From: Microglena sp. YARC
Lineage: Eukaryota > Chlorophyta > Chlorophyceae > Chlamydomonadales > Chlamydomonadaceae
Assembly (NCBI GenBank): GCA_022414725.1
Contig: CM039464.1
Coordinates: 37,690,372 to 37,754,371 of the forward strand
Direction: 5' to 3'
DNA length: 64,000 bases
The translations under genes and the position numbers were made by a program. The notes under the pieces were generated by a model. The model searched no databases, was not told the origin of the DNA, and worked only from the letters and a program-made list of their open reading frames with translations. Shown one piece after another: positions 967 through 30,838 of this stretch; positions within the stretch are counted from its first letter, which is position 1; every line of letters starts with the position of its first letter.

Positions 967-1293
967 CTATGCCTGTGCCTCTGTGGCCTCTAAGTGTTTC
1001 AGGGTCTCGCTGAACACCATATAGCCGATGGTCTGACCCAGGCCCAGTCTCATAGCTTTGGGTAAGAAGCCACGATAGAGCGCCATGAAGCCCTCTTCCC
1101 TCACAATCGTCGCCAGGGAGGGCCAGGTCGCCCCGTACTTGACTTTGCCTGGTAGCTGCGCTTGTACCCGGCTCTTGACCACGTCAAAGGGGGCGTTGAA
1201 TACGGTGGCACCCATACCTACCAGGACACCCAGGCTGAGCTTACGTGCCGCCTCAAGGGCCACGTTGCCCATGGGGTTGGGGTCAAGGTATAC
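967..1293 (-). CDS. Carrier exon 5 (repeat 3 and stop)
   Basis: Acceptor acag|GTATACC, phase 0; 108 codons plus TAG. It starts [18 protein letters not shown], contains signature 3 as [14 protein letters not shown], and ends near the usual end of the family after [13 protein letters not shown]. The final Ala codon and the stop lie inside the pentamer satellite (gcatag is the complement of its ctatgc word). Confidence 0.92.
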   Translation of the reverse strand, partial: VYLDPNPMGNVALEAARKLSLGVLVGMGATVFNAPFDVVKSRVQAQLPGKVKYGATWPSLATIVREEGFMALYRGFLPKAMRLGLGQTIGYMVFSETLKHLEATEAQA

Positions 1294-2323
1294 CTGTCCG
1301 AGGGAGGTGTTTATGTATGAGAATGCGTGTGTGTGGGTGGGGGGGGGTGTGGGGTGCGTGGGTGAGTGCGTGTGTGAGTGTGTGTGTATATGTGTGAGGG
1401 AAACGGGCTTGCATACCCCCTACAGGGCCGCGTTGTCCATGGGGTTGGGGTCAAGGTATACATGTTTGGGGGAGGTGTGTGTGTATGAGTGTGTGTGGGG
1501 TGGTTGGTGTGTGTGAGTGTGAGTGTGAGTGTTGGAGTGTGTATATGTGTGAGATAAACGGGCTTGCATGCCACCTCCAGGGCCATGTTGCCCATGGGTT
1601 TGGGGTCAAGGTATATATGTTCGAGGGAGGTGCGTGAGTGTGTGCGTGCGTGCGTGTGTGTATGAGTGTGTGTGTGAGAGACAGTGTGTATGTGTGGGTG
1701 GGTGGGTGAGCAAGAAGGGCTTGCGTGCCGCCTCCTGGGCCACGTTGCCCATGGGGTTGGGGTCAAGGTATACCTGTTTTAGGGAGGTGGGTGTGTGTGA
1801 GAGTGTGTGTGGGGTGGGTGGGTGTGTCGGGTGGGTGTCAGTGTGTGTATATGAGTGATAAAAACGGGCTTGCGTAGCCCCTCCAGGGCCGCGTTGCCCA
1901 TGGGGTTGGGGTCAGGGTATACCTGTTTTAGGGAGGTGTGTGAGTGTGTGTGTGTATGAGCATGTGTGTGAGAGGGGGGGAACGTGCGTGTGAGAGTGTG
2001 CATTTGTGTGTGTGGGAGTGTGTGGGAGTGTGTGTGAGTGTGAGTGTGTGTGTGTGTGAGTGTGTGTGTGAGTGTATTTGTTTGTGTTTGGGAGTGTGCG
2101 TGTGAGTGTGTATGTGAGAGTGTGCGTGAGTGTGCGTGTATGAGAGTGTGTGCGAGTGTGTGTGTCAGTGTATGTGTGAGAGTGTGTGCGTGTATGAGAG
2201 TGTGTGTGTGAGTGAGAGCGTGATTGTGTGCATGTGAGTGAGAGAGTGAGTGTGTGTGTGAGTTTGTGAGTGTGTATGTGTGTGTGAGAGAGTGTGAGCA
2301 ATGTGTGAGAGTGTGTGTGTGTG

Positions 2324-2374
<51 letters not shown>

Positions 2375-4126
2375 TGTGAGTGTGTGTGTGGTGTGTGGGT
2401 GTGTGAGTGTGTGTGTGTGAGTGTGATGTGTGTGTGGGTGAATGAGAGTGTGCTTTTGTGTGTGAGTGTGAGTGTGTATGTGCATGTGTGTGTGTGAGTG
2501 AGAGTGTGAGTGTGTGTGTGGGTGGGTGAATGAGAGTGTGCTTTTGTGTGTGAGTGTGAGTGTGAATGTGTGTGTGTGAGTGAGAGTGAGAGTGTAAGTG
2601 TGTGTGTGTGTGGGTGAATGAGAGCGTGCTTTGGTGTGTGAGTGTGAGTGTGAATGTGTGTGTGTGAGTGAGAGTGAGAGTGAGAGTGTGTGTGAGTGTG
2701 AGTGTGAATGTGTGTGTGTGAGTGAGAGTGTAAGTGTGTGTGTGGGTGTGGGTGAATGAGAGTGTGCTTTGGTGTGTGAGTGTGAGTGTGAGTGTGCATG
2801 TGTGTGTGAGTGAGAGTGTGTGTGTGTGTGACACTCACACTGTGCAACAATGTGCAGTGGGGATACTGATGCCACCCCTATTATTTTAACACACCTTCTA
2901 TCTAGGGCTAGGGTTAGGGTTAGGGTTTGGGTTAGTGTTAGGGGATCGCACACTAAATATAGTTTATATATAGCTCGATATATAGTGTATAGATAGTGTA
3001 TCATCTCAGCTGTCACAACAAACACCTTCTGCAGCTGGGCCATGGTGCCATTTTAGAGGGCGTTCCACGTGACCACACACCAGAGAGATGACCACGCACC
3101 AGAGGGTGGGGCCTAGGCCGAGGACGAGAGCCTGGACATCCTCTTCCTGACCATAATACACACACATGACATACACCTTCTGCGGCTGAGCCATGGTCCC
3201 GTAGTAGAGTGCGTTCCAAGTGACCACGCACCAGAGGGTAGGGCCTAGGCCGAGGACAAGAGCCTGGACACCCTCTTCCTGACCATAATAATAAAAAAAA
3301 AAAATCTGCAGCTTAGCCATGGTGCCGTAGTACAGGGCGTTCATGATAGGAATGCCTAATTGGCGGAGCCCCCTCTTCAAGGGGGCGGGAGCCCCCATGG
3401 TTACCCATTTGTCCGTCTGTCCGACCAAAAAACTTGAAGCCCGACACGTCAGCCAACAGTCGCGTAACTAAATCGCTTCGGTCAGCTCCATCGTTGCCAC
3501 CTTTTGTTCCGTTGCCAACACACTCCGCCAATTTTCCGCGTCGCTTGCGACGCTGCATAGGACAAGTCCTGACTAAAGGAGGGTTAGACCTTCAAGCTCA
3601 CACTACAAGCTTTCTGAACACATATAACTAGGGAACGGCAACTAATATTAGTGTTTGAAAAACTAATATTAACTGATATATTTTATAGTGTCACAATAAT
3701 ATTAGTTTTTCAAATAAATTCAAATTTCTGGTGAGACGGCTCGTCCGACTAATATTATGTAATGTTATATAAAATGATTTATTCACTAATATTATATAAC
3801 ATAGCCGAACCCTACATATATAATACATACACACACAAAATACAAACATAACACGCATAAATTCAAACATATTACACACATGAAATACGCACATAACATA
3901 CACATAATACAAACACATAAAATACACACATAGTCCACACACCTTCTGCAGCTGGGCCATGGTGCCGTAGTAGAGTGCGTTCCAAGTGACCACACGCCAG
4001 AGGGTGGGGCCTAGGCCGAGGACGAGGGCCTGGGCACCCTCCTCCTTCAGAACTTGGCGAACACAGTCAAGCGAGTTCTTGTACCGGTGCAGGTGCTCAG
4101 CAGATGCCATTCGGACCTGCAGGGGC

Positions 4127-4164
<38 letters not shown>

Positions 4165-6495
4165 GGGGGTGTATGTATGTGTGAGCGTGTGTTTGTACAC
4201 GTATGTATTTCAGCACTTGGCGAGCACAGTCAAGCAAGTTCTTGTAGTGGTGCAGGTGCTCAGCAGATGCCATTCGGACCTGCAGGGCCGGTGTGTGTGT
4301 GGGTGTGTGTGTGTGTGGGGGGGGGGGGTATGCATGTGCGAGCGTGTGTTTGTACACGTATGTATTTCAGCACTTGGCGAACAAAGTCAAGCAAGTTCTT
4401 GTAGTGGTGCAGGTGCTCAGCAGATGCCATTCGGACTTGGGTAGGCGGGGTGGGTGGGGTGGGGTGGAGGGGGGGGGGGGGGGGGGAGGGGTGTGTGTGT
4501 TTATGTGTGAGTGTGTGTTTGTATACATATGTATGGGTGAGGGTGGGGTGGGGGTGGGGTGGGGGTGGGGGGGTCTGAGTGTGTTTGTCTGTGTGGGCGT
4601 GTGTTTTTACGCATATGCAGGTGCTCAGCAGATGCCATTCGGACCTGAGGGGGTGGGAGGAGGGGAGGTGTGCATGTGTGTGAGAGTGCTTGTATGTGTG
4701 AGCGTATATGTATGGGTGAGTGTGTGTAAGTGTGTATGTGTGAGCGTGTGTTCTTACGCATATGTATGGGTGAGTGTGTGTTTGTATGTGTGAGCGTGTG
4801 TTTGCTCACATATGTATGGGTGAGTGTGCAAACCAAAGCGTGCATTTATGTATGTTTGCATGTATTGGAAGCCATTATGATATCGCCTACCATGCAGCAT
4901 GGACAGTGTTATTAGGCTCTTTACTTATTCAACCTCTTTATTTATTTAGGCTCTTTATTTAATTAATTATTTATTTAGGCTCTTTATTTATTTAATTATT
5001 TATTTAGGCTCTTTATTTAATTAATTATTTATTTAGGCTCTTTATTTAATTAATTATTTATTTAGGCTCTTTATTTATTTAATTATTTATTTAGGCTCTT
5101 TATTTATTTAATTATTTATTTTGGCTCTTTATTTAATTAATTATTTATTTAGGCTCTTTATTTAATTAATTATTTATTTAGGCCCTTTATTTAATTATTT
5201 ATTTATTTTATTTAATTAATTATTTATTTAGGCTCTTTATTTAATTAATTATTTATTTCGCCCATTTATTTAACTATTCCTTTATTTAGCCAATGTTTTT
5301 TTAATTATTTGTGTATTTAGCCTCTTTATTTAATTATTATTTATTTAATTCTTTATTTGTCCAGCCTCTTTATTTGACTATTTATGTATGGAGCCTCTTC
5401 ATTCAATTATTTATCCAATTAATTATTTATTTAGCCTATTTAAAAAGCCCACTGATTCAATCACTCCACTAGTGACTCCTGCTACGCAGGCTTACCAATC
5501 CTCAAATAATCAGGATTGTTGTAGACTACCAGGAGGGGCAATACAAGCAATACATACCTTCCTGACATGGAACAGGGCAAAGCCAATTGATTAAAACACT
5601 CCACTAGTGGCCCCTGCTACGTAGGCCTGCCAAACCTCAAATAATCAGGATAATTGTAGACTACCAGGAGGGGCAATACAAGCAATACATACCTTCCTGA
5701 CCTGGAACAGGGCAAAGCCAATTGATTAAAACACTCCACTAGTGGCCCCTGCTACGTAGGCCTGCCAAACCTCAAATAATCAGGATAATTGTAGACTACC
5801 AGGAGGGGCAATACAAGCAATACATACCTTCCTGACCTGGAACAGGGCAAAGCCAATTGATTAAAACACTCCACTAGTGGCCCCTGCTACGTAGGCCTGC
5901 CAAACCTCAAATAATCAGGATAATTGTAGACTACCAGGAGGAGCAATACAAGCAATACATACCTTCCTGACCTGGAACAGGGCAAAGCCAATTGATTAAA
6001 ACACTCCACTAGTGGCTCCTGCTACGTAGGCCTGCCAAACCTCAAATAATCAGGATAATTGTAGACTACCAGGAGGAGCAATACAAGCAATACATACCTT
6101 GATGACCTGGAACGGGGCAAAGCCAACCGATTCAAACACTCCACTCAACTGGTGGCTGCTTTTTTTCTTTTTCTTCTAGCCTTGGTGCCAATGCTAGACT
6201 TTTTGCTTTTAGAAGAAGGAAAAATGTAGGCTTGTCCAACCTCAAATAATCAGGATTTTTGTAGACTACCAGAGGGGGCAATACAAGCAATACGCACCTT
6301 GATGACCTGGAACGGGGCAAAGCCAATTGATTCAAACACTCCACTAGTGGCTCCTGCTACGTAGGCCTGCCACACTTTGAGCTTTCCATCTTGTGAAGTT
6401 GAAATACGCATGAGCCCCCTCTTGGTCAGCTCCAAGCTTCCGAGTGCAGCAGTGGAGCGGGGCAACATACCTGTGTGTGTGTGTGTGAGAGTGTG

Positions 6496-6552
<57 letters not shown>

Positions 6553-6825
6553 TTGTGTGTGTGTGTGAGAGGGAGTGTGTGTATAAGAGAAAGAGTTAGT
6601 GTGTGTGTTTGGGTGAGTGTAAGAGGGAGTGTGTGCGTGCGTGTGTTTGTATGTGTTGTGTGTTGTGTGTTGTGCGTGTGTGTTTACTGTGAGATTCCCC
6701 CATCCTTGGACGGGTAGATGCTCATGAGCCCCCTCTTGGTCAGCTCCAAGCTTCCGAGTGCAGCAGTGGAGCGGGGCAGCATACCTGTGTGTGTGTGTGA
6801 GAGTGTGTAGGTGTGTGTGTGTGTT

Positions 6826-6858
<33 letters not shown>

Positions 6859-7259
6859 GTGAGAGGGAGTGTGTGTATAAGAGAAAGAGTTAGTGTGTGT
6901 GTTTGTGTGAGTGTGAGAGGGAGTGTGTGCGTGCGTGTGTTTGTACGTGTTGTGTGTAGTGTGTTGTGTGTTTGTGTTTGTGTGTGTTTACTGTGAGATT
7001 CCCCCATTCTTGGACGGTTAGATGCCCACGAGCCCTCTCTTGGTGAGCTCCGGGCTTTTAAGTGTAGCAGTGGAGCGGGGCAACATACCTGTGTGTGCGA
7101 GATTGTGTGTGTGTGTTGTGTGTGTGAGTGTGTGTTGTGTGTTGTGTGTGTTGGTATGTGTGTGTGTGTGTTGTGCGTTGTGTGTGTTGGTATGTGTGTG
7201 TGTTTGCGTGTGAGTGTGTGTATGTGTTTTGTGCGTTGTGTGTGTTTGCGTGTGAGTGA

Positions 7260-7294
<35 letters not shown>

Positions 7295-8900
7295 GTGCGT
7301 GAAGGTGAAGGTGAAATGCCACGAGCCCCCTCTTGGTGAGCTCCAGCACTCCAAGTGTAGCAGTGGAGCATGGCAACAAACCTGTGTGTGGTTATTCCGT
7401 TGTCCGTTTGTGCATCCGACCGACCGACCGCCGACGACCGACCGACCGACCGACCGACCGACCGACGACCGAAAAATTGAAGCCTGACACACCAGCCAAC
7501 TGTCTCACAACCAACTGGCTTTGGTCAGCTCCATCGTTGCCACCTGTAGTTCTGTTGCCAACACACACCGCCAATTTTTGGCGTCACTAGCGACGCTGCA
7601 TAAGGCTAGTTCGACGACTCCTCACCATTCCACCCCCATTTTGTCGCTGCATGGCGACACATAGGTCTGGCTAAACAAGTTAGAATCCCCCAACCCTCGC
7701 AACCCCCCCAGACCCCCCAGGCTACGTGCTTTGCGGGGGTTGCGGGGGTTGGGGGGGTTGCGGGGGTTGGGGGGTAGGGCGTCGCACTGGGTCACACCAA
7801 TTACTGAATTTATGACACGTCACAAGAAGAAAAAACAGTACATACCAGCAAACAAACCCTGAACACAAAAACAGTATGTACCAAGAGACAAGCCCTGAAC
7901 CAAAAAAACATCTCGTACCTACAAGCAAACCCTAAAAACAAAAAAGTACATACCAACAAACAAACCCTAAACAAACTCTAAAAAAAAAAGCGAAACGTAC
8001 CTACAAGCAAACCCTAAAAAAAAAAATTACATACCAACCAACCAACCCTAAACCAACAAAAACAGTTCGTACAAACAAACAAACCCTTAACCAAAAAAAC
8101 AAGGCGAACCAAAAAAACATCTCGTACCTATAAAATCCAACACAAATTGGCAATGTTTTACCCGGACCCGGGGGAGCATAAGTCAGAAGCTAGACCTTTT
8201 GCACTTTAAAGAGTCTTTATCAATATAAATTTCATCATTGGGCCCACCCACCCTAAACAAAAAAACATTACACACCAACCAACAAACCCTAAACCAACAA
8301 AAACAGTTCGTACAAACAAACAAACCCTTAACCAAAAAAACATGACGAATCAACCAACAAACCCTTAACCAACAAAAACAGTTCGTACAAACAAACAAAC
8401 CCTTAACCAAAAAAACATGACGAACCAACCAACAAACCCTAAACCAACAAAAACAGTTCGCACAAACAAGCAAACCCTTAACCAAAAAAACATGACGAAC
8501 CAACAAACAAACACTAAACCAAACAATCATCCCCTGAATGGCTATAAAGCCTGTACCTGTAGGGGGTGCCAAGCGGAAACCTTGACATGTGGAAAGCTAA
8601 GAGGTGCGTATTTTGGGGCAGCGGCGAGTTGTTGCATGCCAAAGGCCTTGAATGCTAGAGCAATGTTAGGTAGGTAATCATCCCCTGAATGGCTATAAAG
8701 CCTGTACCTGCTATACCTTACTCATGCCTTACTCATGAGCCCCCTCTTGGTCAGCTCCAAGCTTCCGAGTGCAGCAGTGAAGCGGGGCAACATACCTGTG
8801 TGTGTGTGTGGAACCCTAAACCAAACAATGATCCCCTGAATGGCTATACAGCCTGTACCTGCTATCTCAGGCAGTTTACATTGTGGTTAGTAGAGGCCTT

Positions 8901-8941
<41 letters not shown>

Positions 8942-9316
8942 GTCTGTCTGTGTCTGTCTGTGTCTGTCTGTCTGTCTGTGTCTGTCTGTCTGTGTCTGTC
9001 TGTGTCTGTCTGTGTCTGTCTGTGTCTGTCTGTCTGTGTCTGTCTTGGTCTGTCTTGGTCTGTCTGTGTCTGTCTGCCTGTGTCTGTCTGTCTGTCTGTG
9101 TCTGTCTGTGTCTGTCTGTGTCTGTCTGTGTCTGTCTGTCTGTGTCTGTCTGTGTCTGTCTGTGTCTGTCTGTCTGTGTCTGTCTGTGTCTGTCTGAGTC
9201 TGTCTGTGTCTGTCTGTCTGTGTCTGTCTGTGTCTGTCTGTGTCTGTCTGTCTGTCTGTGTCTGTCTGTCTGTCTGTGTCTGTCTGTGTCTGCCTGTCTG
9301 TCTGTCTGTCTGTCTG

Positions 9317-9405
<89 letters not shown>

Positions 9406-12400
9406 GTCTGTCTGTCTGTCTGCTGTCTGTCTGTTCAAGGGAGGATGGCCTGTGTAGACCTGAATGACAATAAAGTCTTCAAGCTTTCTTCAGACCCTTG
9501 TATCTCCGCTTATTGCGTAGTTGCTATAGCTGTGGTGGTACACACACACAGCCACTGTTGATGCTAGGTGGTAGAAGTGGTGGTAGTGGTGGTAGTGGTG
9601 GTAGTGGTGGTACACACACACAGTCACTGTTGAAGCTAGGTGGTAGAAGTGGTGGTAGTGGTGGTAGTGGTGGTAGAGGTGGTACACACACACAGTCACT
9701 TTTGAAGCTAGGTGGTAGAAGTGGTGGTAGTGGTGGTAGTGGTGGTAGTGGTGATACACACACACAGTCACTGTTGAAGCTAGGTGGTTGAAGTGGTGGT
9801 AGTGGTGGTAGTGGTGGTACACACACACAGTCACACTTTTTTCATTCCCTTGTCTCTCCGCTTATTGCAATGTATAGTTATAATCAGTGTTTTTAATTTC
9901 AGATTTCTGTAGTCCAGGTTGAGTAGCTACTTGGGCTACTGAACCCTGATTTCAGGATAGTTGCGTAGCCATCGCATGGCAGAGCGCCAAGCGCGGAGCC
10001 TTGGGGGGTTGGGGGGCAGCGCGTCCCGATATCGGGGGGTCCGGGGGGTGTAGCATTCTACGGAATGGCGACGGAATGGCGACGCGTCGTCGAAAAATGA
10101 ACACTGGTTGTAGTCCCGTTCTAAAGCGCTCTTGTTACACACACACATCCCCCCCCCACCACCACCACCACCACCACCACACCCACCACACACACCCACA
10201 CCCACAAACACACACAAGGGGGGGTGGCCTGTGTAGACCTGCATGTCTCTAAAGTGCGTACCAGCTATCTCAGGCAAGCTTTCACGGTACAGCTGCACCA
10301 CGCCACCCTACCCACCACACACACCCACACCCACAAACACACACAAGGGGGGGTGGCCTGTGTAGACCTGCATGTCTCTAAAGTGCGTACCAGCTATCTC
10401 AGGCAAGCTTCCACGGTACAGCTGCACCACGCCACCCTACCCACCACACACACCCACACCCACAAACACACACAAGGGGGGGTGGCCTGTGTAGACCTGC
10501 ATGTCTCTAAAGTGCGTACCAGCTATCTCAGGCAAGCTTCCACGGTACAGCTGCACCACGCCACCCTACCCACCACACACCCACAAACACAAACACACAC
10601 AAGGGGGGGTGGCCTGTGTAGACCTGCATGTCTGTATAGTGCGTACCAGCTATCTCAGGCAAGCTTCCACGGTACAGCTGCATCACGCCACCCTCCTTAA
10701 GAGCTCCTCTCAATGTGCCCATTAATGTCATGCCCCCTGTGGTATCGATCTGAAGCCTGCACCCAGGTTTGATTTGATTTGATTTAATTTGACTTTATTT
10801 GATTTGATTCGATTTGAAGGATTGTATTGTATTGTATTGTATTGTAATGTATTGTATTGTATTTGAAGCTTGCACCCAGATTTGATTTGAATTGATTTGA
10901 TTTGAAGGATTTGATTTGATTTGATATAATTTAATTGTATCGATCTGAAGCCTGCACCCAGATTTGATTTGAGGAATGCATGAGCATCACAAACAAAAAG
11001 TTGAATGAATAAAAAATCATCATGAAGTTATAACAAAGCATGACAAACAAAACATGACAAACAAAACATGACTGACAAAACATAAAACCACCCTCCTTGG
11101 GAGCTTCCTCAATGCGCCCATTAAAAAAAAATGAAAATTTAAACATCCAAGAATTGTCACAATGACCTCTACCTGGACATGCCCAGTGGGATTAAGGGAA
11201 CCGGATCGTAAGTATGCGCTGCTCGAGCCTACATCGCACCTATATGCCAGTTTCTGTGCCGGACGATGACCCTCCGGACGGGCACAAGCGCACTCAAGGG
11301 GGTTCGAACCCCGCACCTGCGTCGATTTTTTACCCTCTGCTCTGCCACTGAGCCATTCGGTTCTGATCGGTGATGCGCCCATTAATGTCATACCCCCCAG
11401 CCCATTTTGATGTCTGGCTCAATGGTAGAGCACGTCGAAACAGAAAGGTGCAGGGTTCGAATCCCTACGGGGGTGCTTCATTGTTCGCGGTCGCTGTCAA
11501 CCGCCATGGCAGCTTTGTCCAGGTAAAGTAGAAGCCCGTTACCTACTGCCGTAAGACGGAGATCCCTTAATACCACGCCCCACTAGGCGTTATCATTAAT
11601 GCCATGCCCCCCGTGTTACTGATCTGAACCCTGCACCCATATTTGATTTGATTTGATTTGGTTTGATTTGATTTGAAGGATTTGATTTGGTTTGATTTGA
11701 AGGATTTGATTTGGTTTGATTTGATTTGAAGGATTTGATTTGGTTTAATTGTATTGTATTTGATTTGAAGCTTGCACCCACATGTTGTGGATACTTCTGG
11801 GTCAAACAATCAAAGTTGTTTAAAAATGAAGTTGAAGTTGATGATGTTTTCTTGGGATGTGGGGGGGCATGAGGATAAGGGCAAAATAAGTTAGGAAAGA
11901 GGCATAGGCAGTGGCATAGGGCGTGGGGTACATGGGGCAAGGGGGACATTGGGTGTATAGGGTGCATGGGGCATGGGGTGTGGGGTGCATGGGGCAAGGG
12001 GGACATTGGGTGTATTGGGTGCATGGGGCATGGGGCGTGGGGTGCATGGGGCAAGTGGGGCATTGGGTGTATTGGGTGCATGGGGCATGGGGCGTAGGGT
12101 GCATGGGGCAAGGGGGACATTGGGTGTATTGGGTGCATGGGGCATGGGGCGTAGGGTGCATGGGGCAAGGGGGACATTGGGTGTATTGGGTGCATGGGGC
12201 ATGGGGCGTGGGGTGCATGGGGCATTGGGTGTATAGGGTGCATGGGGCATGGGGCGTAGGGTGCATGGGGCAAGGGGGACATTGGGTGTATTGGGTGCAT
12301 GGGGCATGGGGCGTAGGGTGCATGGGGCAAGGGGGACATTGGGTGTATTGGGTGAATGGGGCATGGGGCGTGGGGTGCATGGGGCAAGGGCGACATTGGG

Positions 12401-13422
12401 TCTATTGGGTGCATGGGGCAAGGGGGACATTGGGTGCATTGGGTGCATGGGGCATGGGGCGTAGGGTGCATGGGGCAAGGGGGACATTGGGTGTATTGGG
12501 TGCATGGGGCATGGGGCGTGGGGCGCATGGGTCAAGGAATGCATGGGGCATGGGCAAAAGAAGCTGGGAAAGGGGCATAGGCAGGAGCATAGGGCCTGGT
12601 ATGCATGGGGCAAGGGTTACATTGTGTGCATTGTGTGCATGGGGCTTAGGGTGCATGGGGCATGGGCAAAAGAAGTTGAGAAAGGGGCATAGGCTGGGGC
12701 ATAGGGCCTGGTATGCATTGGGCAAGGGGTACATTGTGTGCATTGTGTGCATGGGGCATGGGGCTTAGGGTGCATGGGGCATGGGCAAAAGAAGTTGAGA
12801 AAGGGGCATAGGCTGGGGCATAGGGCCTGGTATGCATGGGCAAGGGTTACATTGTGTGCATGGGGCATGAGGCTTAGGTTGCATGGGGCATGGGCAAAAG
12901 AAGTTGAGAAAGGGGCATAGGCTGGGGCATAGGGCCTGGTATGCATGGGGCAAGGGGTGCATTGTGTGCATGGGGCATTGTCTGCATTGGGTGCATGGGG
13001 CGTGGGGTGCATGGTGCATGGGCAAACGAAGTTGGGAAAGGGGCATAGGCAGGGGGCATAGGGCCTGGTATGCATGGGATGCAGGGGGGTGCATGTAAGT
13101 TACGGCGAGTTGCGGGTTGTTTCGACCGGGGGAGGGCGGCTGTATAATCGGCACCGGCAGGACGGGCGAAGTCGGGCGAAGTACTGAATTTGATGCTCCT
13201 TAGGGGACGGTAACTAGGTCTTAACAATGCGCTAGGCAGCGCGCATTTGTAAACGCACCTGGTCTTCAGAAATTCTAGGGGCTGCATGACGATTCCCTCC
13301 ACAACGCCAGACGTCATGCCGGACATGATAACGTAGCTGAGGTTGCTCTTGGCGTGAGGGATGGAAAGCAGCTTGGCCTTTTCAGCCATCAAGGCTGCCT
13401 GGCTAGGCTCCTCGGACAACAT
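967..13422 (-). CDS. Mitochondrial carrier protein, oxodicarboxylate-carrier-like (5 exons)
   Basis: Spliced gene: complement(13422..13259, 10756..10647, 6470..6298, 4116..3943, 1293..967), 315 codons. All four introns are GT-AG and every junction keeps frame. The product has the three-fold repeat of the SLC25 family, with one signature per repeat: PLEFLK (then TRLQ), PFQVIK and PFDVVK. Recognisable segments include [11 protein letters not shown] at the end of repeat 1, [18 protein letters not shown] in repeat 2 and [14 protein letters not shown] in repeat 3. These match the order and spacing of SLC25A21/Odc carriers, which exchange 2-oxoadipate and 2-oxoglutarate across the inner mitochondrial membrane; the exact substrate is inference. 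The second signature has Gln where the family has Asp/Glu. The start is the first ATG after an in-frame TAG five codons upstream. The introns (1.5-4.2 kb) are full of exon-edge echoes. Confidence 0.88.
1405..1938 (-). repeat. Four echoes of the 5' edge of carrier exon 5
   Basis: Four units about 150 bp apart (near 1405-1475, 1558-1632, 1716-1790, 1864-1938). Each repeats the exon 5 start ([10 protein letters not shown] region) with its upstream acceptor, followed by TG-rich sequence. Units 3 and 4 keep the AG of the acceptor; units 1 and 2 have lost it. They lie in intron 4 just before the real exon in transcript order. Confidence 0.88.
1939..2840. repeat. (TG)n/(GAGTGTG)n microsatellite with a 47-G tract
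   Basis: Intron 4 filler of TG and GAGTG words, with a longer imperfect period of about 110 bp at 2430-2800 containing 'gaatgagagtgtgctttggtg'-like spacers. An uninterrupted run of 47 G occupies 2326-2372. The long His/Thr ORFs read from it are artefacts of the dinucleotide composition. Confidence 0.93.
2903..2945 (+). repeat. Short interstitial telomere-like repeat
   Basis: A few units of TAGGGT/TTAGGG/TTTGGG type in intron 4 of the carrier gene. It is followed by AT-rich unique sequence (2946-3020) in which I see nothing further. Confidence 0.6.
3023..3345 (-). repeat. Echoes of the 3' edge of carrier exon 4
   Basis: Three partial copies (about 3023-3153, 3170-3290, 3306-3345) of the GLGPTLW...[11 protein letters not shown] coding end, plus the donor and first intron bases. 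Differences from the exon include Trp-Arg changed to Trp-Cys, and an internal duplication in the first copy. The copy at 3170-3290 keeps an AAG|gt donor. Confidence 0.87.
3361..3570 (+). repeat. Dispersed repeat family G, copy 1
   Basis: About 210 bp starting at ggcggagccccc and containing a 'gtccgtctgtccgacc' patch, then 'agcccgacacgtcagccaac' and 'ggtcagctccatcgttgcca'. Related copies lie at 7390-7605 (plus) and 31245-31447 (minus). No coding capacity or clear terminal structure; it may be a SINE-like element. Confidence 0.75.
3629..3814. mobile_element. hAT-like MITE family F, copy 1
   Basis: A 186-bp AT-rich element starting TAGGGAACGGC and ending CCGAACCCTA, flanked by an imperfect 8-bp target duplication (CATATAAC / CATATATA, 6 of 8). 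The interior has palindromic ACTAATATTA words. The other family members at 22.2-22.8 kb and 38.0 kb share the ends but have ATGATATCAT words inside. Confidence 0.75.
3943..4116 (-). CDS. Carrier exon 4 (repeat 2, second half)
   Basis: Exactly 58 codons, phase 0 at both ends: acceptor gcag|GTCCGAATG, donor AAG|gtgtgt. It encodes [14 protein letters not shown], then [20 protein letters not shown], then [13 protein letters not shown]. Partial copies of both edges lie in the flanking introns. Confidence 0.9.
4205..4650 (-). repeat. Three echoes of the 5' edge of carrier exon 4
   Basis: Copies near 4205-4292, 4369-4442 and 4614-4650 repeat the [11 protein letters not shown] coding start with its gcag|GTCC acceptor, separated by TG- and G-rich spacers, including a run of about 16 G near 4471. 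They lie in intron 3 just before exon 4 in transcript order. The first two keep most of the first 80 coding bases. Confidence 0.88.
4655..4845. repeat. TG-rich low-complexity intron sequence
   Basis: Imperfect 'gtgtgagcgtgtgtt..tatgtatgggtgag' units of about 50 bp inside intron 3. No gene seen. Confidence 0.7.
4915..5440. repeat. AT-rich minisatellite in carrier intron 3
   Basis: About a dozen units of roughly 36 bp, consensus 'ggctctttatttaattaattatttattta', decaying toward the right end. It is almost pure A/T except for the ggctc word. Confidence 0.92.
5458..6290 (-). repeat. Echo array of the 3' half of carrier exon 3
   Basis: About six units of roughly 134 bp. Each holds the [22 protein letters not shown] coding end, a donor-like gt and about 55 bp of intron ('caatacaagcaatac', 'ctaccaggagg'). 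Most units carry TAA instead of the Glu codon after SGVF and Arg instead of Ile in PFQVIK, so they are not usable as coding exons. The unit nearest the real exon (about 6094-6165) keeps Glu and Ile. Confidence 0.93.
6298..6470 (-). CDS. Carrier exon 3 (start of repeat 2, signature 2)
   Basis: Acceptor acag|GTATG completes a Gly codon. The 57 following codons run from [10 protein letters not shown] through [14 protein letters not shown] to PFQVIK, and the donor is AAG|gtgcgt. Copies of its 5' edge lie upstream in transcript order (6.7-8.8 kb on the plus coordinate). Copies of its 3' half lie downstream (5.46-6.29 kb), most with a stop in the SGVF-E-SIG segment. Confidence 0.88.
6471..6690. repeat. 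(TG)n intron spacer
   Basis: TG-rich sequence between exon 3 and its first acceptor-side echo. The same arrangement of words recurs after the next echo (6790-6990), so spacer and exon edge were duplicated together. Confidence 0.85.
6694..7388 (-). repeat. Three echoes of the 5' edge of carrier exon 3
   Basis: Copies at about 6694-6790, 7000-7092 and 7310-7388, roughly 300 bp apart, repeat the GMLPRSTA..L(G/K)S.ELTKRGL coding start with a TG-tract and acag acceptor. All three keep the AG. The copies diverge increasingly from exon 3 with distance. Confidence 0.92.
7390..7605 (+). repeat. Dispersed repeat family G, copy 2
   Basis: Same family as 3361-3570. It has an expanded ccga microsatellite (about 7417-7465), then 'gcctgacacaccagccaac' and 'ggtcagctccatcgttgcca', ending near 'gcgacgctgcataagg'. 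Confidence 0.75.
7606..8525. repeat. A-rich minisatellite in carrier intron 2
   Basis: After a short C/G-rich patch (7685-7780), the stretch is made of diverged units of roughly 70 bp with words 'aaccaacaaaaacagttcgt' and 'acccttaaccaaaaaaacat'. The best-preserved units lie at about 8270-8520. No gene is seen. Confidence 0.85.
8526..8880 (-). repeat. Intronic 35-bp repeats, one exon 3 echo and a short exon 2 echo
   Basis: A word 'catcccctgaatggctataa' plus 'cctgtacctg' occurs at about 8528, 8686 and 8827 (the last as 'gatcccctgaatggctatac'). At 8732-8805 there is a further well-kept copy of the exon 3 start ([20 protein letters not shown]) with its acag acceptor. At about 8857-8878 a short copy of the exon 2 end (LPEIA with gtac donor) is visible. 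Confidence 0.72.
8897..9433. repeat. (TGTC)n/(TGTCTG)n microsatellite
   Basis: About 540 bp of 'tctg' and 'tgtctgtctg' words. All frames are open and give Cys/Val/Leu/Ser or Thr/Asp/Arg/Gln ORFs that are not genes. Confidence 0.95.
9441..9884. repeat. GGTAGT minisatellite in carrier intron 2
   Basis: Four to five units of about 77 bp: 'gctaggtggtagaagtggtg', several ggtagtggt words, then 'acacacacagtcact'. The left part (9441-9490) carries a diverged copy of the intron sequence next to the exon 2 donor ('ggcctgtgtagacctg'). Confidence 0.88.
9885..10106. mobile_element. hAT-like MITE family A, copy 1
   Basis: A 222-bp element with ends CAGTGTTTTTAATTTC and GAAAAATGAACACTG (inverted), flanked by an imperfect 8-bp duplication, GTTATAAT / GTTGTAGT. 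The interior holds 'gttgagtagctacttgggct' and 'gcgtcccgatatcgg'. Four copies occur in this window. The CAGTG end and 8-bp duplication fit the hAT superfamily. Confidence 0.88.
10145..10640 (-). repeat. Echo array of the 3' edge of carrier exon 2
   Basis: Three units of about 120 bp (roughly 10218-10312, 10344-10433, 10466-10560) repeat [11 protein letters not shown] with the G|gtacgc donor and about 40 bp of intron, separated by 'cccaccacacacacccacac' spacers. The spacer at 10145-10215 expands into a CCACCA microsatellite. Each unit keeps a usable-looking donor. Confidence 0.92.
10647..10756 (-). CDS. Carrier exon 2 (end of repeat 1)
   Basis: A 110-bp exon, acceptor gcag|GCTTC and donor GCTG|gtacgc, encoding [14 protein letters not shown] then [19 protein letters not shown]. 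It is the only copy of this sequence that is full length and joins both neighbours in frame. Partial copies of its 3' edge lie at about 10.2-10.6 kb and copies of its 5' edge at about 10.8-11.8 kb. Confidence 0.87.
10757..11126 (-). repeat. Echoes of the 5' edge of carrier exon 2 with GATTT repeats
   Basis: The exon start plus acceptor ('gaagcctgcacccag' on the plus strand) recurs at about 10866 and 10947, each followed by gattt or tattg microsatellite. A copy of the exon middle (complement of [10 protein letters not shown]) is at 11082-11125. A/T-rich intron fills the rest. Confidence 0.85.
11127..11365 (-). mobile_element. tRNA-derived SINE, family 2, copy 1
   Basis: On the minus strand it starts with a tRNA-like head: A box TGGCTCAGTGGCAGAGC near 11340-11356 and B box GGGGTTCGAACCCC near 11300. 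A body follows, ending around 'aatttaaacatcc'. A head-less relative lies at 23357-23520. This is not a functional tRNA: the cloverleaf is incomplete and a SINE body follows. Confidence 0.8.
11370..11402 (-). repeat. Small fragment of carrier exon 2
   Basis: Plus-strand 'gatgcgcccattaatgtcat' repeats the exon 2 segment encoding MTLMG. It is wedged between two SINEs, so the SINEs landed within the echo array. Confidence 0.65.
11410..11602 (+). mobile_element. tRNA-derived SINE, family 1, copy 1
   Basis: The head has A box TGGCTCAATGGTAGAGC and B box GGTTCGAATCC. The body follows: 'gtcgctgtcaaccgccatgg', 'tgtccaggtaaa', 'ataccacgccccac', ending ggcgttatcattaat. Five copies in this window share the body. 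Confidence 0.85.
11603..11800 (-). repeat. Further exon 2 5'-edge echoes with TTTGATT repeats
   Basis: Copies of the exon start/acceptor ('gatctgaaccctgcaccca', 'gaagcttgcaccca') at about 11620 and 11768, separated by tttgattt/gaagga microsatellite, in the 5' part of carrier intron 1. Confidence 0.8.
11915..13085. repeat. GCATGGGGCA minisatellite in carrier intron 1
   Basis: About 1.2 kb of 50-60 bp units with words 'gcatggggcaagggggacat', 'tgggtgtattgggtgcatgg' and 'ggggcgtagggt'. From about 12540 a second, longer unit type (roughly 115 bp, with 'aaaagaagttgagaaagggg') takes over. Both strands and most frames are open, giving spurious ORFs. Confidence 0.95.
13259..13422 (-). CDS. Carrier exon 1 (N-terminus, first transmembrane helix)
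   Basis: Begins at ATG (MLSEEPSQ), with an in-frame TAG just upstream, and ends in the first carrier signature PLEFLKT plus two bases of an Arg codon (phase 2). The donor is AG|gtgcgt. The hydrophobic stretch [18 protein letters not shown] is transmembrane helix 1. Joining to exon 2 restores [10 protein letters not shown], the canonical family motif, which supports both splice sites. Confidence 0.88.
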
Positions 13423-21922: not shown

Positions 21923-22063
21923 ATGCAAGCCTTGAATAAGAGCTTCAATGAACAGAAGGCAGTACTAGACATCGAGGTGCATAGTGTGACTCCAAAGAAG
22001 AAGGATGCAGATTTGGAGAAAGGAGAGAGAGGAGGCAGTTTCTTTATAGCACATCTGAAAAAG
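21923..22063 (+). CDS. Membrane-protein gene, proposed exon 1
   Basis: ATG then 46 codons (MQALNKSFNEQK ... FFIAHLKK) ending AAG|gtgggc. Hydrophilic and Lys/Glu-rich, as expected for the cytoplasmic tail before helix 1. Phase 0 matches the next exon. The link to exon 2 across 1.9 kb of MITE-rich intron is inference. Confidence 0.55.
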
Positions 22064-25000
22064 GTGGGCTGCTGATTTCTGGGGGAGCTGTGGTAGTCAT
22101 GGTTTTATTCGATAGCAGGGTCTATTACCCTGCAGGCTGCTCACTGTCGACGTGTTGAGTAGGCATGGGTAGTATATACACTACTACACCACACTCCTGA
22201 GGACCGAACACATGAGCATGAGTCATGAGTAGGGAACGGCAACATGATATCACATTATATCATGTCATCATATGATATCAAATGATCATATGATGCCTGC
22301 AGTCTGACTAGGCTAAAGTTACCATGTCTATACAGTATCATATCAGATCATATGATGCCGACAGTCTGACTAGGCTAAAGTTACCATGAATTTACGATAT
22401 CATATGAGATCATATGATGCCAGCAGTCTGACTAGGCTAAGGTTACCATTTACATACAATATCATATGATGCAATTTGTATGATATTATATGATATCATG
22501 CTCATCATGCTCACCTTCGGTCAGTATCATATGATTTCCAGTCCCTAGTCATGAGTAGGGGTCGGCAGTATGATATCATATGATATCATGTCATCATATG
22601 ATGTCATATGATATCATATGATGCCGGCGGTCTTCCTAGGTAACTTTGGCCTGGGGTATCATATCATATGGTATTAAATCATATGATTTTTGTATGATAT
22701 CATATGATATCATACTCGTCTTTGGTCAATATCATATGATTTGCCGTTCCCTAGTCATGAGTCAGGAGTGTAGACAGTTTATTGACATGCCTTACATTAA
22801 TTAAATGATCACTGTAGCACGAACTCAGGGCCCCTGCCATTAAAACGATTGTTTGGGGTTCAGTTAATCAATGCCTTTTTTTGTTAAGCCCTTCCTACCA
22901 TGGTTGGGCAAGTCCCTCTAGTCTATTTGGCCTACCCCTGGACTGTAACATACATAGCCTGCGTCCTGTGACACAACAGACCCTTCCTTCTGGTCAACGG
23001 ACCCTCCCCACGTTGCGTCCTGCGACGCAATGGACTCTTCATATTTTGGGCATACCTTGGATATCAGATTTCAGATGCAGTCAGGGTACTTCCAAGCGCG
23101 TGCTTTTGAGCGCTGGCCTGCTGCCTATTTGAGCTCCATCGCGCGTTTCGCGCAGTTTTTTGCACCCCCCTGTGGGCGCAGCAATCAATTTTTGCGCTTT
23201 TTGCACTACAAAGCGCAGTTTTTTGTTTTCAAGTGCGCTAAAGCGCTGGCCAATTTGGTCAATGGAAGTACCCTGGATGCAGCAGTTAGCTTCATGTGTG
23301 GCTAGAGTACAGGAACAGGGAGCCTCCTAGAAGCTGCTATTCGTGGCTATAACAAGAAAGAGTTGCGCTTGGGCCCGTCCGGAGGGTCGTCGACCGGCAC
23401 AGTAACTGGTATCTAAATGGGATGTTGGCTTGAGCAGCGCATCCTTACGATCCGGTTCCCTTAATCTCACTGGGCACTTAAAGGTCATTGTGACAATTTT
23501 TGGATGTTTAAATTTTCATTTTGTTTTTACATTTTTTCTTTTCCAAGAAAGAGTGGCACTGAATATCCAACTCTACAACCCGAGGGGGGGGCAAGAAAAA
23601 AGCTGCCGTACCACATCTTAGCTTTGGATAGAGCTTGTCCTCAAACTATAAAAAACAAAAGTGCTACAACCCATTTATTTTTATTTTTTGTGAAAGGTAT
23701 TTTACCCCAGGGGGTGGGTCCCCCTACACAAATCAGTGGCACAGAAGATTCAGTTCGAATGGCGTTGCCACTCCTACAAAAGAGTAGGCGCACTTAAGGG
23801 CGGTGGGAGAAACCGGCCCTCGACCAAACGAATATTCACCACAACCCCTATTGACCACTACCCCGATTGACCACTACCCCTATTGACCACTACCCCGATT
23901 GACCACTACCCCTATTGACCACTACCCCTATTGACCACTACCCCTATTGACCACTACCCCTATTGACCACTACCCCTATTGACCACTACCCCTCTGCAGA
24001 TCGCTCGGAAGCTGGACCTCTACTCTATCCAGGAGGTTCCTCACTCCCTCGCCGCATCTGCCGTGTCACTCCTAATCTTGATTGGGGTGCTAGTGTACAC
24101 CATTATTATCGTGTACCAGTACGTTCACCAAGGCCGAACCAGAACGGCAGAGGTGCACTGGACCCCGGGTGCTGGCCCCTTCCCGGCAGAACTGAAGTGC
24201 CTTGCCGAAAACGGCTGCTTTATCAGTAACAGAGTCTACGCCGCCTGGACTTATGGAGTAAGTGATCCAGAGTACTTGCAAGCGCGCGCTTTTGCGCGCT
24301 GGCGCGCAGCCTTTTTGAGCCCCACTGCGCGTTTCGCGCAGTTTTTTGCAACCCCCTGTGGGCGTAGCAAGCAATTTTTGCGCTTTTTGCACTACAAAGC
24401 GCAGTTTTGTTTTTTTCAAGTGCGCTTAAGTGCTGGCCAATTTGGTCAATGGAAGTACCCTTAAGTGATTGTGTCGGACTTATGGGGTGAGTGACAGTGT
24501 TTTTTATTCCAGATGTCTGTAGTCTAGGTTGAGTAGCTACTTGGGCTACTCAACCCTGATTTCAGGATAGTTGCGTAGCCAAAGCATGGCGGAGTACGAA
24601 GCGCAGAGCCTTGGGGGTCGGGGGGCAGCGCGTCTCGATATCGGGGGGTCTGGGGTATGTAGCATTCTACGGAATGGCGACGCGTCGTCGAAAAATGAAA
24701 CGCTGTTAAGTGATCGTGTCTCATTTCAAGTATTTTTATACAGGTGTGATTCGCATTTTACTGCTTATATCGTTCAGAAGAAGAGGAGAAAAATAGAAAA
24801 AAGAAGTGCAAGGGGATGGGAAGTTTCGTTTTTTTTTTTCCGTGCCAAGGATTCTGAATTTTCATTTTTCATCTGGTGACCTTTTTTTTTAGTTTTGCAC
24901 CCCAGGAGGTGGGTCTCCCTACACAAACCAGCGGCACCGAGGATTCAGTTTGAATGGCGTTGCCACTCCTACAAAAGAGTAGGCACACTAAGGGTCGGCG

Positions 25001-27898
25001 GTCGGTGGGAGATACCAAACCTCGACCAAACGAACATTCACCACTACCCTTATCGACCACGACAGACGAGCTTTGTCTAATAAAGAAGAGGAGACCGAGA
25101 AGGCTGAGAACCATCGCATCACATCGCATCACATCACATCACATCACATCACATTCAATGATTATTCAGCTCTAAACCCTAAACCCTATACCCTCACCGA
25201 ACTGAAATGATTTTGCAGCCCTAAAAATTAAACCCTAACTGAACTGAAATGATGATGCGCTCCTCCAGGTTATGGTGATCCCCTCCCAGATGAGCTGCTT
25301 CTGTCTCCAATTTTGCAGCCCTAAACCCTAACTGAACTGAAATGATTATTCAGCCCCCAAATTCTAAACCCTAACTGAGCTGAAATGATGATGCCCCCTT
25401 CCAGGTGACGGTGATCCCTAACTGAACTGAAATTATTTTGCAGCCCTGAACCCTAAACCCTAACCCTGAAATGATTATGCGCTCTTCCAGGTGACGGTGA
25501 TCCCCTCCCAAATGAGCTGCTTCTGTCTCCAATTTTGCAGCCCTAAACCCTAACTGAACTGAAATGATTATGCGCTCTTCCAGGTAACGGTGATCCCCTC
25601 CCAAATGAGCTGCTTCTGTCTCCAATTTTGCAGCCCTAAACCCTAAACCCTAACCCTGAAATGATTATGCGCTCTTCCAGGTAACGGTGATCCCCTCCCA
25701 AATGAGCTGCTTCCGTCTTACATTTGGCGAGAGCATCATCATCAACAGTGTTTTTTATTTCAGATTTCTGTAGTTCAGGTTGAGTAGCTACTTGGGCTAC
25801 TCAACCCTGATTTCAGGATAGTTGCGTAGCCATCGCATTGCGGAGCGCCAAGCGCGGAGCTTGGGGGTGTCGGGGGGCAGCGCGTCCCGATATCGGGGGG
25901 TCCGGGGGGTGTAGCATTCTACGGAATGGCGACGGAATGGCGACGCGTCGTCGAAAAATGAAACACTGATCATCAACGTGACCTACTCGACCAATCCAGA
26001 TGAGCTGCTTCTGTCTCCAATTTTGCCGCCCTAAACCCTACACCCTAACTGAGCTGAAGTGGTTATGCGCTACCCCAAGTAACGGTGGTCCCCTCCCAGA
26101 TGAGCTGCTTCCGTCTCCAATTTTGCAGCCCTAAACCCTATACCGGTACCCTACCTGAACTGAAGTAATTATGCAGCCCTGAACCCTAAACCCCAACCCT
26201 GAAATGATTATGCGCTCCTACGTCCAGGTGACGGTGATCCCCTACCAGATGAGCTGCTTCCGTCTCCAATTTGGTGAGAGCGCCATCATCAACGTGACCT
26301 ACTCGACCAATCCAGAGGACGGTCTTGATGTCATCTACAATGGCTCTGCCACCCCAGCAGACTTCCCCCCCCTGTTCGGCCTGTACCTCACCTCCCGCGC
26401 CGCCTGCCGTGTTGGGGAGCCCACGTGCAATGAGGGGGCCATGCCTATGAGCCCCCCTATTGGCCCGGGCATCAACTTCCTGGATCTCGTCGAAACCACA
26501 AACCACACCCAGAGTGGTTTCGGACACTTCCGAAGGGAGTGGTTTGTGTCCAGAGTAGACAAAGACGTGTCCGTGACTGAAGGAGTCTGTTTGGAAGCAC
26601 ACCCAGAGCTTGCCAACCCCGTGTATGTTCAGTCTTCACTGCGCTTAGCTGCATCCTACACAGAGCAGGATATATTCTATCAATCTCTATTCCTCGTGGT
26701 CATGGGAAGTGTAGGAGGCGCCTACTCCCTGTTCTTACAAATAGGAGCTTTACTCCTTGTCGTGTCGCTCATATACGACATGTATGCCAAGAACAAGGCT
26801 GCACGCCAGGTGAGTCTCCCCCCCCCCCCAACCCGACGTCTTCACTGCGCATAGCTGCGTCCTACACAGAGCAGGATATATTCCATCAATCTCTATTCCT
26901 GGTGGTCATGGGAAGTGTAGGAGGCGCCTACTCCCTGTTCCTACAGATAGGGGCTTTACTCCTTGTCGTGTCGCTCATATACGACATGCATGCAAAGAAC
27001 AAGGCTTCACGCCAGGTGAGTACCCCACCCACCCACCCACCCACACACACACCCACACACGGTCCTGGTGGTCATGGAAAGTGTAGGACGTGCATACTCT
27101 CTGTTCCAACAGATAGGGGCTTTACTCCTTGTCGTGTCGCTCATATACGACATGTATGCAAAGAACAAGGCTTCACGCCAGGTGAGTACCCCCCCCCCCC
27201 CCCCCACACACACACAACGGTCCTGGTGGTCATGGAAAGTGTAGGAGGCGCCTACTCCCTGTTCTTACAAATAGGAGCTTTACTCCTTGTCGTGTCGCTC
27301 ATATACGACATGCATGCAAAGAACAAGGCTTCACGCCAGGTGAATGCTTCCCCCCACCCCCACCCCACCCCACCCCCACCCCCACACACGGTCCTGGTAG
27401 TCACGGGTAGTGTAGGAGGCACCTACTCTCTGTTCCTACAGATAGGAGCTTTACTCCTTGTCGTGTCGCTCATATAGTCATATACGACATGTATGCAAAG
27501 AACAAGGCTTCACGCCAGGTGAATGCCCCCCCCCCCCCCCCCCACACACACCCCCCCCCCCCCCACACACACACATACACACACAGTCCTGGTGGTCATG
27601 GGGTAGTGTAGGAGGCACCTACTCTCTGTTTCTACAAATAGGGGCTTCACTCCTTGTCGTGTCGCTCATCTATGACATGTATGCCAATAACAAGGCTTCA
27701 CGCCAGGTAAGCCGGGCTTTAGTGCGAAAGGGAAGGTGTCTTTAAGTAGCACCATGGTCCTATAAAACCTGTTCCTGGTGATCATGTGCGTGGTAGCGTA
27801 AGTGGCGCCTACTCTCTGTTCCTACAAATACTCCTTGTCGTGTTGCTCATATACGACATGTATGCAAAGAACAAGGCTTCACGCCAGGTGAGTACCCC

Positions 27899-27930
<32 letters not shown>

Positions 27931-28190
27931 GACACACGGCCCTGGTGATCATGGAGTAGCATAGGAGGTGCCTACTCTTTATTCCTACAAATAGGGACTC
28001 TGCTCTTTGTCTTGTCGCTCTTATACGACATATATGCCAAGAACAAGGCTTCACGCCAGGTAAGTACCCCTCCCCACCCCCCACCCACCCCCCACACACA
28101 CATGCACACAGTCCTTGTCTTGTCACTCATAACGGTATATGACATGTATGCCAAGAGCAAGGCTTCACGCCAGGTGAGTGCCCCCCCCCC

Positions 28191-28221
<31 letters not shown>

Positions 28222-30570: not shown

Positions 30571-30793
30571 CAGTGTGTTTTATTTCAGATTTCTGTAGTT
30601 CAGGTTGAGTAGCTACTTGGGCTACTCAACCCAGATTTCAGGATAGTTGCGTAGCCATCGCATGGCGGAGCGCCAAGCGCGGAGCCTGGGGGTGTCGGGG
30701 GGCAGCGCGTCCCGATATCGAGGGGTCCGGGGGGTGAAGCATTCTACGAAATGGCGACGGAATGGCAACGCGTCGTCGAAAAAAGAAACACTG
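30571..30793. mobile_element. hAT-like MITE family A, copy 4
   Basis: 223 bp, CAGTGTGTTTTATTTC to GAAAAAAGAAACACTG, perfect 8-bp target duplication GACTAGGG at 30563 and 30794. Confidence 0.95.
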
Positions 30794-30838
30794 GACTAGG
30801 GAGCTGCACTAGTGAATGCATTTTATCAGGGAGCTATA

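Follow-up and report, generated by a model that had tools for sequence, protein, structure and literature searches.

Tandem copies of exon borders in introns of a Microglena alga resemble the mirages of lancelets

Tandem repeats with units spanning exon-intron boundaries are known from lancelets under the name of 'mirages'. In the parts of the lancelet reports relied on here, the units are 10-160 bp long, both boundary types are affected, RT-PCR shows that splicing is undisturbed and the repeats display length instability (PMC3087553, PMC3902484). Excerpts of two further reports describe related cases: a single border-crossing duplication created a new intron in the RdRp gene of potato (PMC4974935), and human segmental duplications contain boundary internal tandem repeats with units of 30 bp on average (PMC2812944).

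We analysed a stretch of 64,000 nucleotides (the window; C3:37690372-37754371) from the genome of a Microglena alga (568,105,699 bases in 2390 contigs). An echo is defined as a same-strand copy of an exon edge in the adjoining intron; echoes were searched for with a 40+15-nt border probe and then with longer probes. The 55-nt border probe detected echoes at 12 of the 18 borders of two neighbouring genes, an SLC25 carrier gene and a gene called TM2 here. Both border kinds are hit (five donor and seven acceptor borders).

As far as the lancelet excerpts go, three features of mirages recur in the algal arrays: the unit spans the exon-intron boundary (12 of 18 borders), 5′ and 3′ boundaries are both affected, and many but not all units keep AG/GT. 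Unit length is about 10-160 bp in the lancelet accounts and 58-294 in the alga; units in one lancelet gene are 81-100% similar to each other, while algal echoes are ~90% identical to the exon. Unlike the mirages described there, the arrays reported here belong to a green alga, affect 12 of 18 borders of a pair of neighbouring genes and are frequent in the sampled carriers and chaperonins. Single arrays reach 13-14 copies, and together the arrays make up ~44% of the intron DNA of the carrier and TM2. Undisturbed splicing and length instability were demonstrated for lancelet mirages, whereas the algal arrays are described from genome sequence. By these features the algal arrays appear to belong to an already known type of structure, found here in a further branch of life and at high density in the sampled genes. 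Keyword searches of open-licence PMC papers brought up no report of such arrays from an alga; in the excerpts used, mirages are reported from lancelets, and the algal case adds many borders in unrelated genes.

The potato RdRp case and the Rogers-type AGGT model (PMC4974935, in the excerpt used) share with the algal arrays a duplicated border-crossing segment that carries splice signals. In potato, however, a new intron was gained, whereas in the alga existing introns would lengthen and the exons of the protein stay joined. At each junction the outer exons join into the homologous protein, so that the arrays can be explained with no intron gain. The human boundary repeats, as excerpted, are alike in that minisatellite expansion at exon-intron boundaries alters gene structure, and unlike the algal arrays in that they can form novel introns and belong to recent primate paralogues. 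A sequence-only reading of the carrier gene had proposed a repeated, site-specific duplication process at exon-intron borders as a previously undescribed route of intron growth. On the excerpts available, lancelet mirages (PMC3087553, PMC3902484) and the potato case (PMC4974935) precede it.

The first gene has five exons on the minus strand. Its reading frame of 948 nt encodes 315 aa with a Mito_carr match at E = 5.6e-55, and chlorophycean carriers align with the protein over all four exon junctions; this fits the earlier singling out of the exons as those that join in frame into a full SLC25 protein. Identity over the alignment is 55% to a carrier of Chlamydomonas schloesseri and 56% to one of Pleodorina starrii, and a C. 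schloesseri homologue reaches 60% in local alignment. The public EukProt model P0002 is 99% identical to the carrier over the shared part. The carrier homologues place the window among chlorophycean green algae. An array of ~20-bp units at window positions 1-972 begins right at the carrier stop codon; the 3′ end of the gene is also repeat-flanked.

TM2 is an uncharacterised membrane protein gene with six exons on the plus strand. P0078, the model of a TM2 paralogue from the same proteome (locus C1:163458238-163464098), aligns to TM2 exons 1-5. Public models stop TM2 at exon 5; in the paralogue, exon 6 has the same acceptor and stop codon as in TM2. Homology of the carrier exons, the P0078 alignment and conservation of exon 6 thus support all 18 exon borders. 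Introns 1-4 measure 1936, 1970, 2374 and 5058 bp in TM2 and 1079, 1202, 1423 and 516 bp in the paralogue. Identification of TM2 as a P2X receptor was rejected, with no Pfam family above the cut-off and no PDB match. A third, more distant TM2 copy lies at C2:47526661-47530318 (loci L035 and L037), with in-frame stops in two of three matches. Exon 5 of TM2 contains an in-frame coding tandem repeat of VSTPP... units (window 34738-35203); tandem duplication strikes exons too where the frame survives.

Table 1. Exons, echo arrays and dispersed elements in the window (window positions)
Feature	Position	Strand	Remarks
SLC25 (2-oxodicarboxylate carrier-like) exon 5, stop codon included	967..1293	-	reading frame, Mito_carr match, alignment
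Carrier exon 5 acceptor-side array	1294..1937	-	4 echoes, period ~155, exonic reach 55 nt in 4/4
Carrier exon 4 donor-side echoes	3019..3342	-	3 echoes, two with reach 104 nt; two stretches are P0002 exons
SLC25 exon 4	3943..4116	-	reading frame and alignment to carriers
Carrier exon 4 acceptor-side array	4117..4656	-	3 echoes, period 157, three differing reaches
Carrier exon 3 donor-side array	5444..6297	-	5-6 echoes, period 135, common end (reach 75-78 nt) in 5/6
SLC25 exon 3	6298..6470	-	reading frame and alignment to carriers
Carrier exon 3 acceptor-side array	6471..7390	-	3 echoes, period ~294; separate 4th copy at 8730-8810
Carrier exon 2 donor-side array	10166..10646	-	3 echoes, period 129, common end (reach 48 nt); weak 4th at 8845-8880
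SLC25 exon 2	10647..10756	-	reading frame and alignment to carriers
Carrier exon 2 acceptor-side echoes, irregular	10757..11645	-	among (ATTTG)n-type repeats; weakest of 12 borders
SLC25 (2-oxodicarboxylate carrier-like) exon 1, with ATG	13259..13422	-	donor without echo
TM2 exon 1	21923..22063	+	donor without echo
TM2 exon 2	24000..24257	+	both borders without echo
TM2 exon 3 acceptor-side array	25258..26227	+	7 echoes, common end in 4/7
TM2 exon 3	26228..26809	+	alignment to P0078
TM2 exon 3 donor-side array	26810..29053	+	12-13 echoes, period ~170; reach 118-119 nt in 10/13
TM2 exon 4	29184..29288	+	both borders without echo; C1 paralogue has 2 acceptor echoes here
TM2 exon 5 acceptor-side array	32122..34346	+	13-14 echoes, period ~150, two reach classes; none found in paralogue
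TM2 exon 5	34347..35344	+	alignment to P0078
TM2 exon 5 donor-side array	35345..36027	+	11-13 echoes, period 58, reach 21 nt in 11/11
TM2 exon 6 acceptor-side array	36196..36906	+	6 echoes, period ~115; only one full match in paralogue
TM2 exon 6 with stop	36907..37027	+	absent from public models; kept in paralogue (39 aa, 82%)
MITE-like copies	~9880-10112 (carrier intron 2); 24494-24720, 25745-25970, 30577-30795 (TM2 introns)		by eye
SINE-like copies	~11395-11590, 38365-38560, 48505-48690, 55960-56090, 58005-58200		by eye

The copy numbers given earlier for each carrier exon edge were reproduced (border probe/longer probes): 4/4 at the 5′ edge of exon 5; 3/3 at the 3′ edge and 3/3 at the 5′ edge of exon 4; 5/6 and 4/4 at the 3′ and 5′ edges of exon 3; 4/4 at the 3′ edge of exon 2, one of them weak; and 4/5 at its 5′ edge, several weak and with no regular period. 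At the 3′ edge of exon 1 the count is 0/0. The border probe detected no echo at six borders, namely the donors of carrier exon 1 and TM2 exon 1 and both borders of TM2 exons 2 and 4. The sequence-only reading had described the pattern in one gene; the carrier does show it, but so do five of the ten TM2 borders (border probe) and, in the genome sample described below, 13 of 20 carrier loci and all four chaperonin loci. A roughly regular period, judged by hand, is present in 11 of the 12 arrays. With the longer probes we found 79 echoes with a mean exonic identity of 0.903. The border arrays, with ends set by hand, cover 10,806 of 24,408 intron bases (~44%) in the carrier and TM2, and the pattern recurs in two gene families, which supports a large contribution of border duplication to intron length.

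Probes made of exon sequence only recovered 60 copies in the exon's own intron, at 12 of the 18 borders. The same probes gave no copy in 14 tests on the intron across the exon and none on either strand of 30.3 kb of intergenic window DNA. Introner elements are dispersed mobile copies that enlarge intron content genome-wide; the algal echoes, in contrast, are local, with no copies in 130 tests of exon-only probes on other introns of the carrier and TM2. Reverse-complement and reversed border probes had no match in any of the 18 border tests, and exon-interior probes matched the flanking intron in 3 of 107. The fixed direction noted earlier, with donor copies after the donor and acceptor copies before the acceptor, is a necessary outcome of tandem duplication, which leaves only the outermost copy attached to the rest of the exon. 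Each copy had also been said to carry the splice site. This holds for most: GT is present in all 34 donor echoes and AG in 32 of the 38 acceptor echoes that cover the site, but some AG are lost and seven echoes (three donor, four acceptor) fall short of the site.

The search was carried to a sample of 20 carrier loci (47 exon matches) and four chaperonin loci on contigs C1, C2, C3 and C5, where exon ends are the ends of profile matches rather than mapped splice sites. Matches within the sampled DNA numbered 47 of 106 for carriers and 25 of 64 for chaperonins; two low-complexity probes were dropped, which left 46 of 47 3′-edge probes in carriers and 24 of 25 5′-edge probes in chaperonins. In the carriers, the 5′ edge had copies upstream in 17 of 47 cases and downstream in none, and the 3′ edge had copies downstream in 15 of 46 and upstream in two; exon middles were copied upstream in 4 of 47 and downstream in 3 of 47, and no edge copy lay on the opposite strand (20 loci, 47 exon matches). 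For the two upstream 3′-edge copies, exon middles are copied upstream too, and a long acceptor-side copy is therefore likely. In total, 24 of 47 carrier exon matches and 13 of 20 loci were affected. Chaperonins showed 5′-edge copies upstream in 6 of 24 and 3′-edge copies downstream in 5 of 25, none on the wrong side or the opposite strand, with exon middles copied in 2 of 25 and at least one echoed edge in each of the four loci.

For the combined sample, 5′-edge copies were upstream in 23 of 71 and downstream in none, and 3′-edge copies were downstream in 20 of 71 and upstream in two. The genome scan suggested by the sequence-only reading, run on this sample, thus found copies placed non-randomly with respect to exon borders (of 142 edges, 43 have a copy where expected, 2 on the wrong side and none on the opposite strand); the random placement named there as evidence against the pattern was not seen among these carriers and chaperonins. 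Self-BLAST of the carrier loci gave extra copies for 26 of 47 exon matches, several of them inside the match only, and one 5′-end copy downstream, at L027, where two profile matches 64 bases apart are probably one exon.

We consider it probable that the echoes are splice-border minisatellites of the mirage kind, with a founding tandem duplication across the border followed by amplification and decay. A tandem duplication of ~60-300 bp, with breakpoints at no set distance from the splice site, would by chance span an exon-intron border; slippage or template switching at short homologies could produce it. The duplication would be tolerated, as the outermost copy is still joined to the exon, while a donor echo has no acceptor and an acceptor echo no donor. 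For the same reason echoes would make poor exons. The array would then win and lose units as other minisatellites do, presumably by unequal exchange, and its echoes would drift as non-coding DNA, with the intron lengthened thereby.

The arrays have a tandem layout, and in 9 of the 12 the majority of echoes end at one exonic point (within 3 nt). Such a common end is found in the carrier at the exon 5 acceptor (4/4) and exon 2 donor (3/4), and in TM2 at the exon 5 donor (11/11), exon 3 acceptor (4/7) and exon 5 acceptor (7/13); the three arrays with no majority end are those at the acceptors of carrier exons 2, 3 and 4. Over eight arrays we counted 141 derived variants private to one echo, 64 common to 2 to n-1 echoes and 12 common to all; echoes of the carrier exon 2 acceptor have 18 private derived variants and no shared ones. 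Common ends and shared variants point to one or few founding events plus amplification for most arrays; copies taken afresh from the exon on every occasion would not have such ends and variants in common. The earlier description of the process as 'repeated' is therefore not supported as it stands; more than one duplication event per border is nevertheless likely in places, as at the first echo of the TM2 exon 3 donor array, which extends further into the exon than the others and so has an extra end. Shared variants occur in seven of eight arrays, and adjacent echoes are significantly more alike in only one of eight, so that concerted evolution is weakly shown. A conveyor, with new copies arising at the exon and older ones moving inward, was rejected: pooled over arrays, identity is unrelated to distance (2776 of 5000 permutations equalled or fell below the value observed), and identity declines with distance in two single arrays only.

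The arrays of the TM2 paralogue differ from those of TM2. No echo was found in the paralogue at the exon 3 and exon 5 acceptors. At the exon 4 acceptor, which is bare in TM2, the paralogue carries two echoes; its exon 3 donor shows a single partial echo, and the region of the exon 6 acceptor gives one match. Past its exon 5 donor there are, by eye, ~5 tandem copies with the junction as in TM2. Because this junction is common to both paralogues, the exon 5 donor array would be older than the TM2 duplication; the comparison suggests that other arrays are specific to one gene copy.

Echoes and exons differ by 243 non-synonymous and 101 synonymous codon changes, with 13 stops, in 1366 codons. The non-synonymous to synonymous ratio is 2.41 against 2.68 for neutral change (unpolarised, so that exon changes are counted too) and varies by array, from 54:32 at the TM2 exon 5 acceptor to 13:0 at its donor. 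With codon changes near neutral, the echoes look like non-coding DNA. Splice-site-specific conservation was rejected: donor positions +1/+2 are kept in 35 and 36 of 37 and the two acceptor positions (AG) in 40 and 34 of 42, rates that do not clearly exceed those of neighbouring positions. Splicing presumably joins the outer exons and skips the echoes, as their in-frame joining and homology suggest; echo donors may be in some use, with GT intact in 34 of 34, somewhat above the expectation from ~90% identity.

Two public models take echo pieces as exons: P0002 at window 3177-3278 and 3078-3176 (minus strand), and P0077 at 26947-27015 with a neighbouring echo and at 32137-32298 (plus strand). P0002 lacks carrier exons 1-3, and P0077 lacks TM2 exon 6 and the start of exon 4; P0078 is without such echo pieces. 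Most simply, the pieces are gene-prediction errors. Since public models take echoes for exons, predicted proteins may carry false internal repeats, and proteome records of the Microglena alga need care, with false repeats present and real exons missing in the models examined.

Could the echoes be functional alternative or decoy parts of exons under selection, serving cassette-like choice or as a splicing buffer? The mostly intact splice dinucleotides (GT 34/34, AG 32/38) and the inclusion of echo pieces as exons by P0002 and P0077 agree with such a role. We regard it as very improbable all the same: an array of alternative exons is expected to show coding constraint and an acceptor and a donor on each unit, while here codon differences are near neutral and include 13 stops, no echo includes more than one border, echoed borders and copy numbers are not the same in the TM2 paralogue, and the pieces in the models look like predictor errors that P0078 does not contain. 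Copy numbers of tandem arrays are frequently wrong in assemblies, and false copies could arise through mis-joining of reads. That the arrays as such are an artefact of this kind is barely credible, given that the 79 echoes are ~10% off the exon (mean identity 0.903), differ among themselves and have counterparts at independent loci.

Local direct repeats are general in this DNA: 37% of complex 40-mers recur on the same strand within 3 kb and 1.6% on the opposite strand, and tandem families also occur inside introns, away from borders, and intergenically. Per base, borders are hardly special; per founding event they are. Collapsed families touching 48 exon edges number 24 against 6 expected from the same gene gaps (P ~3e-8), an approximately fourfold excess; for 94 edges the count is 34 against 8-13 expected, ~2.7-4-fold over all sampled non-exonic DNA. 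In these counts arrays at exons missed by the profile fall under 'other', which lowers the excess, merged neighbouring arrays raise it, and not all edges are true borders. That border arrays might simply stay detectable for longer was rejected as the cause: border and other families have like identities (78.7 and 79.6%, n = 21 and 94, p = 0.49), and border families, being no older, do not owe their excess to it.

One reading of the excess is a border-directed process, in which tandem duplication in this lineage would strike preferentially at exon-intron borders of both kinds, for instance through stalling of replication or repair where an exon meets simple-sequence intron. We think this unlikely. 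In its favour are the ~fourfold excess at edges within the same gene gaps, not explained by age, and the intron halves of the units, of which 7 of 10 examined are more than half simple repeats. But the exonic share of the unit ranges from 0.24 to 0.84 and does not depart from a uniform distribution (KS p = 0.51, at the low power of 11 arrays; unit lengths entered by hand and one, 150, assumed), which suggests, within the limits of these arrays, that breakpoints fall without regard to the splice site; with families off borders as well, the epithet 'site-specific' of the sequence-only reading finds no support. Echoes are about as frequent at donors as at acceptors (15 and 17 edges in carriers, 5 and 6 in chaperonins), which points to no one splicing step in particular. 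The share of repeated positions, moreover, is hardly higher at borders than in introns (0.64 vs 0.59; intergenic, 0.21), and an intron length of ~230-420 bp at founding time would remove the excess. A still wider version, in which borders are true hot spots throughout the 568-Mb genome and a border-directed process is a main engine of intron growth, with lancelet mirages as another, independently arisen case of one general eukaryotic process, is likewise unlikely.

Intron length bears on this directly. In the excerpts used, C. reinhardtii has a median intron of 229 bp, medians range over 198-343 bp among six core-Reinhardtinia species (PMC8226300), and mean introns are 516-934 bp in two snow algae and UWO241 (PMC11247165). 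Under uniform dropping on introns of 229 bp, 10.9 of 17 arrays are expected at borders and 12 were seen (P = 0.38); the expectation is 7.6 of 17 for 400-bp introns (P = 0.02) and 3.9 of 17 for 934-bp introns. For this 12-to-5 count, three dispersed element pairs and one coding repeat had been set aside by eye beforehand, and clustering had merged at least two intron-internal arrays with border families, one of 72 bp (9532-9819) and one of 29 bp (4938-5358). When these two are counted separately (12 of 19), introns of 229 bp give an expectation of 11.4 of 19 (P = 0.49) and introns of 400 bp one of 8.0 of 19 (P = 0.04). Short introns at the time of founding, of only ~230-420 bp, are the most likely source of the edge excess, the upper figure being arithmetic from the share of 24 among 55 families. 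As the paralogue introns measure 0.5-1.4 kb, however, short ancestral introns are neither demonstrated nor favoured by that comparison. The Microglena genome is a place where border preference can be tested, and the arrays suggest that introns recurrently grow by way of border-spanning minisatellites.

Several other features of the window were recorded. A MITE-like element of ~220-230 bp is present in four copies (by eye), whose ends resemble inverted CAGTGTTT/AAACACTG repeats. A tRNA-like, SINE-like repeat, scattered over the window (by eye), consists of a GGTTCGAATCCC-type stretch and then a CCACGCCCCACCAGGCGTTATCATTA-type end; ARAGORN and Rfam searches gave no tRNA and no Rfam match in the 64-kb window, SINE-like copies included. 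Between the carrier and TM2 there is a two-copy tandem duplication of ~715 bp (window 17576-19023), each copy of which ends near poly-C. A long open frame of F-box-like/ankyrin type at window 59031-61946 contains many similar ankyrin repeats and no visible intron.
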